64,000 bases of DNA. Origin: Desulfuromonadales bacterium. Its GTDB lineage: Bacteria; Desulfobacterota; Desulfuromonadia; Desulfuromonadales; BM103. Where the stretch lies: the NCBI GenBank assembly GCA_030145205.1, contig JAQYVZ010000015.1, forward strand, positions 1 through 64,000, given 5' to 3'. Under the pieces are notes generated by a model. The model worked only from the letters and a program-made list of their open reading frames with translations. It did not search any database and was not told the DNA's origin. A program made the translations under genes and the position numbers. Positions 3,017-19,515 of the stretch are shown in pieces. Position 1 is the stretch's first letter. Every line of letters starts with the position of its first letter.

Positions 3017-3538
3017 TCAGTTCCCGAAATCTTCCGCCAGCCGTTTTTCGAGAGCCGCCGCTTTCTTTTCAACACCCGCAGCCATCTCCACTTTGAAGGT
3101 GACCAGCTTCTCTGCGAGGGTATCGTCAGCCAGAGCCAGCATTTGTGTCGCAAGGATGCCAGCATTACGTGCGCCAGCCTTGCCGACCGCCATGGTTGCC
3201 ACCGGCATGCCGGCCGGCATCTGTACCATCGCCAGCAGGGCATCCATGCCGTTCAGCGAGGTCGCATCAATCGGCACACCGATAATCGGCAGAGTGGTTT
3301 CGGCGGCCATAACGCCTGCCAGATGCGCCGCAGCGCCCGCGCCTGCGATCAGCACTTTCAGGCCTCGCTTTTTCGCACTGGAAACATAGCGACTGGTCCG
3401 TTCCGGGGTGCGGTGTGCGCTCGACACCGTCATTTCGAAGGGCACACCGAACTGATCCAGTGCTTTCGCGGCTTCAACCATGATGTCATAATCCGAATCA
3501 CTGCCCATCAAAATGCCGACCAAAGGTTGCTTGTTCAT
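3017..3538 (-). CDS. purE: 5-(carboxyamino)imidazole ribonucleotide mutase PurE (class I)
   Basis: Converts N5-CAIR to CAIR in de novo purine synthesis. The 173-residue protein has GSDSD at residues 12-16, SAHRTP with the catalytic histidine near 42, and the later stretch [23 protein letters not shown] typical of class I PurE. I use the second of two adjacent ATG codons (3538), which is 6 nt from AGGAGG; the open frame extends 13 codons upstream. A separate PurK would be expected for this class but is not in the window. It is the last gene of the alr-ASKHA-purH-purD-purE run, 48 nt after purD. LarB further along is a distant homologue of this enzyme. Confidence 0.95.
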
Positions 3539-9140: not shown

Positions 9141-9155
9141 GTGGCAAAACAACAT

Positions 9156-9251
9156 TCCGCTAGGGGAGCAGGTCGCACCTGCTGAGAGTTTCGTACTCGT
9201 CGAAACGACCCTTCGAACCTGATCCGGGTCATGCCGGCGAAGGAAAGTGGA
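9156..9251 (+). promoter_or_regulatory. TPP riboswitch (THI element)
   Basis: The conserved blocks appear in order: GGGGAGC (9163-9169), CTGAGA (9182-9187), ACCCTT (9208-9213), GAACCTGATCCGGGTCATGC and GGCGAAGGAAAG (9237-9248). The P1 stem pairs TCCGCT (9156-9161) with AGTGGA (9246-9251) including one G-U pair. It precedes thiE-thiD and thiC, whose product is the ligand's precursor. A terminator hairpin follows at 9283, so control is probably by premature termination when thiamine pyrophosphate is bound. Confidence 0.96.
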
Positions 9252-9282
9252 TGGTTGACCAACGACTAAGGTTCCTGCCGGA

Positions 9283-16302: not shown

Positions 16303-18429
16303 TCAGCCGGTCTCTTCCACCTTGAACACTGCCATTTCTTCTTGGAGAACCGTGATCTCATCACCGAGCCTTGCAACGGCACCATTCAATGCCTCAACAG
16401 AACCGACGTTTTCACTGGTCGTCTCTTTGATCCCCTCCATCTCTTTGACTATATTGTCGCTCCCCACGTTCTGTTGATCGCAAGCGACCTTGACCTGCTG
16501 TACCAGTTCGGTCATTTGCTCCATCGCAGCGCCTATCGTGTGACTGGTCTGACTCTGTTCACGGGTCGAGTTTTTGACCTGTTGTGTCAAACCAGAAATC
16601 AATTCAGAGGCCGACGTAATCGATCTGGCGCCTTGATCCTGCTGCCGGGTTGCCGACGCGATCTGCACTACCATATCTGAGACGCTTTCGACCGACTCGC
16701 GCATCAGACGACTGGCCTGAGCCTGTTCGATGGTCGTTCTGACGATATGGTCCACCCGGTCGGAGCTGCCTTGCGCACCGCCGACAATCTTTTCAAGCAT
16801 CTCTCCTGATTGCAGGGAAAGACCCTCTCCTTCTGCCACGATCGTTTCCGTCTCCCGGATGGCGGCAACAGCTCGACCAGTTTCCTGCTGCACATCCTCA
16901 ATCACCGCCTCGATTTTACGGGTCGACTGGCTGGTTCTCTGTGACAATTCCCGGATTTCATCAGCCACCACGGCAAAGCCTTTGCCATGCTGTCCCGCTT
17001 GGGCAGAAATGATGGCAGCGTTCAGGGCCAACAAATTTGTCTGTTCGGTAATCTCGTCGATAACCGCCAGGATTGAACCGATATCCTTGACCTTCTCCGC
17101 CAGGTTTTCAACCGCCGTCGATGTGACATGCGACGAACTCTTGATCTGGCGGATACCGGCGATGGTTTTTTCAACAGAACTTTGTCCATGCTGCGCATCC
17201 TGCAGAACTTCGGCCGTAGACTTGGCCGTTTCGCGGGCATGCTCCTCCACCTGCTTGATTGTCACATCCATCTCCGCCACGGTCGAAGCGGTCGCGTCCG
17301 AGGTCTTTTTCAGAACTTCGGCATTTCCGGCAACCTGAGAAATCGCCGAGGCCATCTGGTCAATAGCGGAACTGATTTCATCAACCGCTTGCGCCAACCG
17401 CTGGGCATTCTCGGCCACCTCTTCAATGGTAGCAGCCATCTCCAGCGTGGAAGAAGTGCTGTCTGCAGCAGACACGTTGAGACTTTCGACATTCTTCGCC
17501 ACCGAATCGATTGAAGCGCCGATTTCGATGATTGCTGCTGAGGTGTTGGCCACCCCCTCCTCCTGAAGCTGTGCAGAATTCTTGACGGAACCGGCTGCAT
17601 CTGACACCGCACCAGAGATCCCCGAAAACTCTTCCGTCGCTACACGGATGCGCTGCACCATCTGCCCCAGCTTGTCTGACATATCATCCATGGCTGCAGC
17701 CACTTGGCCAATTTCATCACCACGTTGGATGCCGAGGCGCTGCGCCAGGTTGCCATTCCCAATATCACCGATCACCTCAACCACCCGATGCATCGGTCGC
17801 GTCATGTTGCGGGCGATGATCGTCGACAGCCCAATCCCCAGGATTAGACCAACCACCGTCAGATAACTGCTCCAGCGCACCGTCCGTTCAGAGAGATGGT
17901 TGATTTCCTCCAATGAACTGTATAGAGCCTCAGACACCAGAGTTTTTAATTTAGCGGCTACATCTTCGAGCTGCGTGAAGGCCGCAGTATATTCCTCACG
18001 AGCACCAACAAATTCAATCAACTCTTGGTTGACTGAGTATCCGGTCATTTTCATGCCGATCTCAAAGCAACGTTCAAACAAGCCGCGAAACGACGCAAAC
18101 TTTTGTGCCGCACTCGAGCTGGCAGGCAGGGTCTTTCCCAGCTGCGCAAAGCTTTTCTCCAGCGCCACCTTCTCCTGCTCGGCATCTTCAAGAGGAACGA
18201 GGGTTGCCGCTTCGGAAGCATACACGACACTACTGAGAATTTTTTCGGCACGATTGATTGCGCTGATAGTCTCGATCGCATCCCGGTAGCGGATTTCCTT
18301 GACCTGATCAACTTGCTGATTAATCTTATTGGAATTGGAGATATTGAAAAGGCTGACGATTGCGAGCAGTGCCAGAACGACCCCGAAACCGACAAACAAC
18401 TTTCCGGACATTTTCAGATGTGCGAGCAT
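16303..18429 (-). CDS. Methyl-accepting chemotaxis protein
   Basis: A 708-residue transmembrane chemoreceptor. I start at ATG 18429, 5 nt after GGAGG, dropping 29 upstream codons. A first membrane helix ([18 protein letters not shown]) is followed by about 150 residues of helical periplasmic sensor, a second helix ([18 protein letters not shown]), a HAMP domain with [14 protein letters not shown], and a long cytoplasmic coiled coil. The signalling tip reads [21 protein letters not shown], then [18 protein letters not shown]. The usual tip has AAIEAARAGE; Ile-Ser and Gln replace Glu-Ala and Arg here, a variant I believe is common in Geobacter-type receptors. The ligand is unknown. It stands alone with its own terminator and no che genes nearby. 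Confidence 0.93.
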
Positions 18430-18591
18430 CACAGCCTCCGTAAAGGACAACAGTGTATCCTTCGAGTCTCTCCAAACAGGTAAGGGGGTATAGATTCCAG
18501 AATTACCTGAAAACATACCCCCCTCCGTTATTTCACGTAATCTATGTGCTATTTCACTGAAACAGATATAGCATAAACTACCGATGTTTTG

Positions 18592-19341
18592 CTACTTGCT
18601 AATTTTAGTTGGCATTCCTGACTTGATCCACTGGTTCATGCCTCCACTCACTTTGACAATGTCGTCAAACCCTTTAGCCGTCAGATAACGTGAGGCCAAT
18701 GCGGCCCGTTTACCAATTTTATCAAGAATGACCAACTTTTCCCCTGCTGGAATCTCTGCGTAGCGTTGTGGCAGTTCATTAAAGGAAATCTGTAGCCGCA
18801 AGGGCGTCTCGATCCAGAATTTGGCGGCATCAACCGGAATTCGGACATCGAGCAGGACAAAATTTTCGCCGGCATCCAGCATTTTCTGAAGATCTTGTGG
18901 AGAGAGGGTCGGAACATCCACCTTCGGCAAGGTTTCCAGGGTTACCGTTGGATACCCGGCCATAATCCATTCCGGCAGACCACCCCGAAAAACGTAGACA
19001 TTCTGATAGCCTGCATTAGCTGCCAGACCGGCAGCCTTGCCCGAAGCCACTCAGGTCCGGCCGAGGCAATAGAAAACCAGGGACTGCATCTTGTCGTCGG
19101 GCAGTCCGGCAGGAATCTGTTCAATCGGGATGTGGATGGAATCCTCAATGTGCAGGTTATTGAACTCGATGGAACTCAGAGGGAAAATGACAACAGCCTG
19201 ACCGCCGTCCATCATCTCTTTGACCCGTTTGGCATCGACTTCCACCGGCTCGGCACTAAAAACCGGGCTGACAAAAACCATGCTCGCAAGGAGTACGATC
19301 ATCACAACATAAATCGCACGCAACAGAGGTGTACGTTTCAT
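18592..19341 (-). CDS. Exported two-domain rhodanese-like protein, probable selenoprotein (UGA at 19051-19053 read as selenocysteine)
   Basis: Read straight through an in-frame TGA, the gene gives 249 residues. A signal peptide (MKRTPLLRAIYVV...VFSA, cut after about residue 30) precedes the first rhodanese domain (about 32-135), whose active-site loop reads YC-LGRT-U-VASGKAAG with C92 and selenocysteine 97. Cysteine homologues of this class, as I know them, have C-x4-C here. It continues without a break into AGYQNVYVFRGGLPEW. The second rhodanese domain (about 145-245) has VLLDVR and GGMNQWIKSGMP, but Asp207 replaces its catalytic cysteine. A SECIS-like hairpin lies 15 nt after the UGA. GGAGG precedes the ATG. 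Rhodanese-type selenoproteins have been listed in selenoproteome surveys (from memory). The alternative, a nonsense mutation, is less likely given the hairpin and the intact downstream frame. Confidence 0.85.
19019..19035 (-). promoter_or_regulatory. Bacterial SECIS-like hairpin for selenocysteine insertion
   Basis: On the mRNA the 17 nt GCUGCCGGUCUGGCAGC form a perfect 6-bp stem with the apical loop GGUCU. The loop matches the GGUC loop that SelB reads in E. coli fdhF. The stem begins 15 nt, and the loop 21 nt, after the UGA at 19053-19051, within the spacing known for bacterial SECIS elements. It lies inside the coding sequence, as expected in bacteria. Confidence 0.8.
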
Positions 19342-19458
19342 TTAATCCTCCAGAAAAGAAAAAAGACTGAACTGCCCCCCCGCCGCGTTGAACACGCCCC
19401 AGCAACGCCCCTTCGTAAGAGAAACTTAATGCAACATTCACGCCTAAACACATAACAC

Positions 19459-19494
19459 AAAAAGGGCCGACTCCAGTTGGAGTCGGCCCTTTTT
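19459..19494. terminator. Bidirectional terminator after rpsU
   Basis: A perfect palindrome with 15 or more base pairs (AAAAAGGGCCGACTCC and its complement) around a CAGTTG loop. The built-in T-run works in either direction. It ends rpsU transcription and separates it from the rhodanese gene. Confidence 0.9.
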
Positions 19495-19515
19495 GCAAAT
19501 ATCCTGATCGGGGGA

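Follow-up and report, generated by a model that had tools for sequence, protein, structure and literature searches.

Rhodanese selenoproteins are a known kind of protein; the new part of the locus analysed here is the pairing of such a protein with a receptor. A 2026 review counts 119 prokaryotic selenoprotein families and subfamilies (PMC13188914). Its text gives five rhodanese selenoprotein forms, none of them as a two-domain C-x4-U protein or together with a sensor, and the words chemotaxis, chemoreceptor, sensor and histidine kinase are all absent from its main text. Likewise, no title or abstract opening among the literature matches listed links a rhodanese or a selenoprotein to chemotaxis or a chemoreceptor. 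The form 1 rhodanese-like selenoprotein (UxxS; WP_010941598.1), which the review ascribes to Zhang and Gladyshev (2005), has a predicted selenocysteine (Sec) in a rhodanese domain, and U97-V-A-S100 of the protein encoded in the 64,000-nucleotide stretch under study (the window) fits its motif. This comparison is one of motif only, and the text of the review describes no sensor link for form 1 (PMC13188914).

Two family models lie closest to the window protein. TsoB (NF045694), a rhodanese/DsbD fusion-like selenoprotein with a UxxxxU motif, likewise has a rhodanese domain with two chalcogen residues spaced five apart, but both are Sec and the fusion protein is much longer (572-position model), whereas the first residue in the window protein is Cys. 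The model matches window residues 77 to 136 at 52.4 bits, far below its cut-off of 805. The best NCBIfam match of the window protein is the rhodanese-related selenoprotein family NF041203 (rhodanese_LYCAU, form 3, CxU), in which Sec follows Cys by two residues rather than five; the window protein scores below the cut-off of that family (65.5 bits; cut-off, 115), and four TGA-containing and two Cys-containing relatives reach 57 to 86 bits. No NCBIfam model exceeded its cut-off for the window protein or for the six relatives tested. A third rhodanese gene of the window genome (L005, 1237-1677; G000:C75:85889-86059) holds an in-frame TGA within the motif YC-T-U and scores 95.3 bits against NF041203 (cut-off, 115).

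Outside the selenoproteins, Sud of Wolinella (PDB entry 1qxn, titled sulfide dehydrogenase) shares the rhodanese fold and matches domain 2 of the window protein in sequence (E = 2.5e-12). Sud is a periplasmic polysulfide-binding rhodanese with a single domain; it serves respiration rather than sensing and is not known to be a selenoprotein. On the receptor side, Tar senses via the periplasmic maltose-binding protein. In both this system and XylFII-LytSN (5xsj), a four-helix sensor domain receives its input from a periplasmic protein, as is proposed for the present locus; the likeness is suggestive only, at fold E values above 0.001. The partners of Tar and LytSN are solute-binding proteins, whereas the partner in the window is a predicted rhodanese selenoprotein.

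Selenocysteine coding and the SECIS element

The window rhodanese is encoded by two minus-strand reading frames, 19341-19051 (ATG start, 96 aa) and 19050-18592 (152 aa), which lie in one shared frame and are joined by a single TGA at 19053-19051, corresponding to residue 97 (Table 1). Both the coordinates and the frame of this junction were checked and agree with the original prediction. The active loop of the joined protein reads FYC92-LGRT-U97-VAS. Pfam Rhodanese (PF00581) matches the protein in two stretches (77.1 bits; cut-off, 22.2). Purifying selection acts on either side of the TGA. Compared with the nearest relative (70% identity), pN was 0.172 and pS 0.62 before the TGA, and pN was 0.149 and pS 0.767 after it. 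Purifying selection before and after the TGA was also seen in three other pairs of TGA copies, a fifth pair being nearly identical and therefore uninformative. An AlphaFold2 model built from 25 aligned sequences (mean pLDDT, 93.5) places the active loop between a strand (87-91) and a helix (99-109) and predicts a hydrophobic helix at residues 6 to 23, within the putative signal peptide. The solved relatives, by sequence as well as by fold, are rhodaneses (6mxv, 3tp9, GlpE 1gmx and others). Elsewhere in the window, a TPP riboswitch is located at 9152-9262 (+) (81.3 bits; gathering score, 54.3).

Table 1. Positions of the rhodanese and chemoreceptor features in the window
Feature	Position	Strand	Remarks
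Chemoreceptor (methyl-accepting chemotaxis protein) gene	16303..18516	-	MCPsignal 131.5 bits, HAMP 50.3 bits (Pfam)
Chemoreceptor sensor region, four long helices (modelled)	17842..18411	-	Common to partner receptors of window-type rhodaneses
Two-domain rhodanese gene, predicted selenoprotein	18592..19341	-	With UGA decoded as Sec97, 249 residues from ATG to TAG
Rhodanese domain 2, about residues 140-249, Asp207 replaces Cys	18595..18924	-	Boundaries approximate
Asp207 codon, catalytic-Cys place of domain 2	18721..18723	-	
Rhodanese domain 1, residues 37-127, with C92-x4-U97 loop	18961..19233	-	Pfam best stretch
Predicted SECIS hairpin with a stem of 7 bp and an apical GTC loop (+22 to +24 from the TGA)	19019..19035	-	Covariation, Cys control, covariance model
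Sec97 codon (TGA)	19051..19053	-	
Cys92 codon, canonical rhodanese nucleophile position	19066..19068	-	Invariant, 25/25 copies of the order
Probable signal peptide, residues 1-30, cleavage after SPVFSA	19252..19341	-	By eye from sequence
Terminator-like hairpin upstream of the rhodanese gene	19456..19497	-	Consensus scan only

The original prediction had proposed a search of the genome for selA, selB, selC and selD, and all four are present in the window genome (3.72 Mb, 317 contigs). The selA, selB and selD genes are clustered at C248:9011-13269, and selC encodes a tRNA-Sec with the anticodon TCA in the gene (UCA in the tRNA); all four exceed their family cut-offs. The selD gene of this cluster (G000:C248:9011-13269) itself holds a TGA. 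Across the order, selB occurs in all 12 genomes with TGA copies, but it says little as a test because 115 of the 136 genomes have it.

Alignment with Cys homologues, likewise proposed, revealed intact frames with either TGA or Cys at codon 97, and neither of the outcomes named as refuting the original prediction was seen. Among the 136 genomes of the order, 24 carry a total of 25 rhodanese copies (E up to 1e-20), with TGA in 13, Cys in 12 and no third state at this codon, so the in-frame TGA goes beyond chance. These include a paralogue on contig C214 of the window genome (56% identity), with TGA at the same codon. Eight further copies (six TGA, two Cys) were found in a sample of 395 genomes of the phylum, which overlaps the order sample (E up to 1e-50). 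The predicted C-x4-C motif was confirmed in the Cys relatives, and 18 of the 19 TGA copies have the C-x4-U spacing, the divergent L124 being C-x5-U. A scan of viral contigs for relatives found none, and a scan of named genomes found only two distant rhodaneses (30 to 32% identity). Sec in a C-x4-U loop was also observed in other proteins of the class and phylum (L077-L081, L075, L082 and L126, TGA at 3154); these are single-domain rhodaneses, another two-domain type and ExtH-like proteins of about 430 to 470 aa. A Cys-form two-domain rhodanese flagged with an in-frame TAG (G256:C20:716-1456, L076) has a frame that ends slightly before the usual C terminus.

A hairpin with the features of a SECIS element follows the TGA. 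The 45 nt from the TGA onward align without gaps in all 19 TGA copies, in which 96.8% of stem cells are paired, four pairs have changed on both sides and the apical loop reads G[GU]N at +22 to +24. Covariation of the stem (19 rows, 18 distinct) was 0.437, compared to a shuffled mean of 0.145, and none of 500 shuffles scored as high; sliding the partner strand by 1 to 3 columns left at most 54.0% paired. In contrast, the hairpin is absent from the same columns of 14 Cys copies, where pairing (68.4%) equals that of shuffled sequences (68.9%) and a loop-initial G occurs once, compared to 19 of 19 TGA copies. A covariance model was built from 16 copies; the window copy was excluded, as were its nearest relative (L022) and one row of an identical pair. 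The Sec97 site was the best match of this model in the window (32.7 bits; E = 5.5e-5), and the next (17.3 bits, 48001-47957 on the minus strand) lies outside any plausible gene. Over 23 other loci the model gave five matches at E up to 1, namely, L022, the Sec sites of the ExtH-like L082 and L126, the Sec site of the single-domain rhodanese L078, and a site in L081 that stands away from the TGA of that locus. In the 14 Cys copies, the homologous place gave no match.

The hairpin geometry fits the rules for bacterial SECIS elements given in the text of the review, which ask for a stem-loop after the UGA with a spacing of 16 to 37 nt and a G in the first two loop positions (PMC13188914). Hairpin energy does not discriminate TGA from Cys copies, whereas register, loop G and covariation do. 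The window hairpin has a z score of -1.83, with 8 of 200 shuffles folding as well, and for the TGA copies L035 and L038 the bare upper stem gives only -7.1 kcal/mol. All 19 TGA copies have 27-nt folds at -8.7 or lower, and 8 of the 14 Cys copies also pass -7.5.

It is very improbable that the gene is not a selenoprotein gene at all, as would be the case for a pseudogene, a sequencing error or a stop followed by re-initiation. A GTG directly after the TGA in the window could serve re-initiation, but only 3 of the 19 copies have a start codon right behind the TGA, 6 of 19 lack any in-frame ATG, GTG or TTG within 25 codons, and 2 of 19 show an SD-like stretch upstream. A TAA flag in the table rows of three relatives seemed to favour a pseudogene; by its coordinates it is their terminal stop. 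The retention of TGA at one codon in 19 copies, the SECIS covariation and the constraint after the TGA also argue against a pseudogene or an error. Pseudogene, error and re-initiation were rejected on the SECIS covariation, the constraint after the TGA, the leave-out SECIS match and the start-codon survey. Even less credible is a reading of UGA as another amino acid, such as Trp. The frame would be open under any code with TGA as a residue, but relatives without TGA have Cys, not Trp, in this column, the genome has the full Sec machinery, and the TGA is followed by a SECIS element; this reading was rejected on the same three grounds. Overall, the selenoprotein part of our reading is well supported by comparative sequence evidence, and the UGA at residue 97 is almost certainly a selenocysteine codon.

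Active loops and the evolution of Sec and Cys copies

C92, the first residue of the active loop, is the canonical rhodanese nucleophile, and U97, the sixth, stands for the second Cys of C-x4-C. The original prediction of a Sec-for-Cys exchange at the catalytic position therefore needs correction, and U97 is most likely a resolving partner rather than the sulfur acceptor. The catalytic Cys at the first active-loop place is present in domain 1 (Cys92) and absent from domain 2, where residue 207 is Asp, as had been claimed. With Asp207 in place of Cys, domain 2 would not be catalytic.

Within the order, residue 207 is Asp in all 13 TGA copies and Cys in all 12 Cys copies, and at the threshold used no column besides 97 and 207 divides the TGA copies from the Cys copies. 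However, because the 12 Cys207 copies form one clade, this split counts as about one event. All eight further phylum copies (six TGA, two Cys) have Asp at 207, by eye. A strict tie between Sec and Asp207 was rejected, as the Cys copies L126 and L127 have Asp by the same inspection. Asp207 tracks a sensor neighbour better than it tracks Sec.

A tree of 37 rows groups the 12 Cys97/Cys207 copies as a single clade (support, 100/97) lying within the Asp207/Sec copies (97/93 with seven Sec copies). This tree requires a minimum of three Sec-Cys changes, and its rooting rests on long outgroup branches. A simple reading of the sequences is that the Cys97/Cys207 clade lost Sec, regained the domain 2 Cys and left the chemoreceptor context, in about one event.

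The chemoreceptor partner

A chemoreceptor gene starts 75 nt downstream of the window rhodanese gene on the same strand, and a consensus scan detected no terminator-like site between the two. The Asp207-type set comprises all 19 TGA copies and two Cys copies in 19 loci, of which 16 have an adjacent same-strand sensor gene (13 chemoreceptors and 3 histidine kinases), related loci not being independent. In the order, the adjacent same-strand gene is a chemoreceptor in 10 of 13 TGA copies. It lies downstream of both window-genome copies and that of G100, upstream of five copies of family f8, and on both sides of two copies of family f7; gene order thus differs between families while the pairing is kept, and the rhodanese and its receptor form a conserved gene pair. 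Of the remaining order loci, G085 has an adjacent histidine-kinase-type gene (HATPase_c over the cut-off, HAMP just under), and G008 ends at a contig end, where the neighbour cannot be judged. G024, a TGA copy, has no adjacent sensor gene; its neighbours encode a DUF3467 protein and an apolipoprotein N-acyltransferase, and a sulfate permease gene lies farther along.

In the wider phylum, G512 has a chemoreceptor that begins 10 codons past the stop of the rhodanese. In G417 and G566, two tandem TGA copies stand directly before a histidine kinase (L130, 5909-9565; L131, 3936-7582), and elsewhere in each of these genomes a chemoreceptor comes after a Cys copy that has Asp as residue 207. G536 has no adjacent sensor gene, and multihaem cytochrome and cytochrome b561 genes lie upstream. 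Sec is not needed for the receptor pairing, because the Cys copies L126 and L127 have a chemoreceptor neighbour. No chemoreceptor was found near the 12 Cys207 copies among all frames of at least 70 aa in their flanking stretches, three of which are near a contig end. A Pfam scan covering part of these neighbours (8 and 9 proteins) identified, as the next gene of one copy each, a PAS histidine kinase (G015), a response regulator with an HD domain (G130) and a Crp-like regulator (G133), so signalling genes are not absent around the Cys207 copies.

The sensor region of the partner receptor is homologous over about 195 residues in the ten partner receptors aligned; that of L111, cut by a contig end, was left out. 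A profile of this region gave nine matches of 218 to 266 bits in the 136 genomes of the order, all nine beside a TGA rhodanese, and the next three matches reached 49 to 53 bits. In the 395 phylum genomes, which include three order genomes with sensor matches, it gave five matches in four genomes (E up to 1e-20), again all beside a TGA rhodanese. Because the profile was built from these same sequences, the result means no more than that the search turned up no other carrier. Against the profile, the receptors next to the Cys copies L126 and L127 reach only 32 to 34 bits, and they belong to another subtype.

The sensor region was modelled as four long helices (mean pLDDT, 81.9). It resembles four-helix receptor domains, weakly by E value; its fold matches included Tar, Vc1313, PcaY, MCP2201 and LytSN (best E, 2.5e-3; all above 0.001), and a PDB sequence search with the region gave four weak helical-bundle matches. 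The two rhodanese-receptor pairs of the window genome are 56% identical in the rhodanese and 56% identical in the receptor N-terminal region, as if they had been duplicated together. Nine CheW-domain matches occur in the same genome, and four of these lie within open frames of 694 to 852 aa, the size of CheA.

Proposed function and alternatives

The original prediction had described a periplasmic selenium-dependent transfer or redox enzyme. The selenoprotein part of that description stands; a plain enzyme is less well supported, and the conserved chemoreceptor or kinase neighbour, which that prediction did not mention, points to sensing. A rhodanese beside a dedicated receptor suggests that the cell senses sulfur or redox chemistry outside the inner membrane. 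On balance, we lean towards a periplasmic selenoprotein co-receptor that would report sulfane sulfur or redox state to chemotaxis. Sequence comparison supports the Sec coding, the SECIS element, the C-x4-U pair, Asp207 and the dedicated receptor neighbour, and we infer the ligand, the Se-S chemistry, the physical contact and the effect on chemotaxis. That the periplasmic Sec rhodanese, its second domain devoid of a catalytic Cys, may be the sensing element of a dedicated chemoreceptor (of a kinase in relatives) is a proposition we hold to be evenly balanced between right and wrong.

In such a co-receptor, an exported two-domain protein of rhodanese fold would contain Sec97 through decoding of the UGA by way of the downstream SECIS hairpin. 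Cys92 and Sec97, five apart in the domain 1 loop, would form a redox pair in which Cys92 may take up sulfane sulfur (polysulfide, thiosulfate or persulfide) or an oxidant and Sec97 may resolve the Cys92 adduct as an Se-S bond. Domain 2 may bind or dock. The state of the loop would then be read by the four-helix periplasmic domain of the receptor, or by a histidine kinase in some relatives.

A real though lesser possibility is that the protein acts alone as a periplasmic selenoenzyme (a persulfide or polysulfide reductase, a sulfurtransferase or a peroxidase) and that the receptor is co-regulated with it, responding to the same stimulus without contact. In its favour, proteins of rhodanese fold usually catalyse sulfur transfer, all 25 copies retain the C92 nucleophile, and no chemoreceptor adjoins the rhodanese at two Asp207 loci and 12 Cys207 copies. 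However, the sensor-linked copies have lost the domain 2 Cys, one receptor subtype accompanies the rhodanese through different gene orders, and chemoreceptor and kinase neighbours alternate, which sensing explains more readily than catalysis does. We regard as quite unlikely a protein for the delivery or scavenging of selenium or sulfur (a selenotransferase) that is only regulated by the receptor system. Rhodanese domains can carry persulfide or perselenide, which would favour such a role, but neither a selenium-uptake gene nor selD adjoins the rhodanese in the window, and Sec at the resolving place would favour release by Se-S closure over stable carriage.

If the co-receptor reading is true, the rhodanese would be a selenoprotein through which sulfane sulfur, selenium or redox potential feeds into signalling. 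With a selenoprotein devoted to a single receptor type, the use of selenium would be linked directly to behaviour. As the pair is small and has Cys versions in related lineages, it would also make testable what selenium gains for a sensor rather than for an enzyme.
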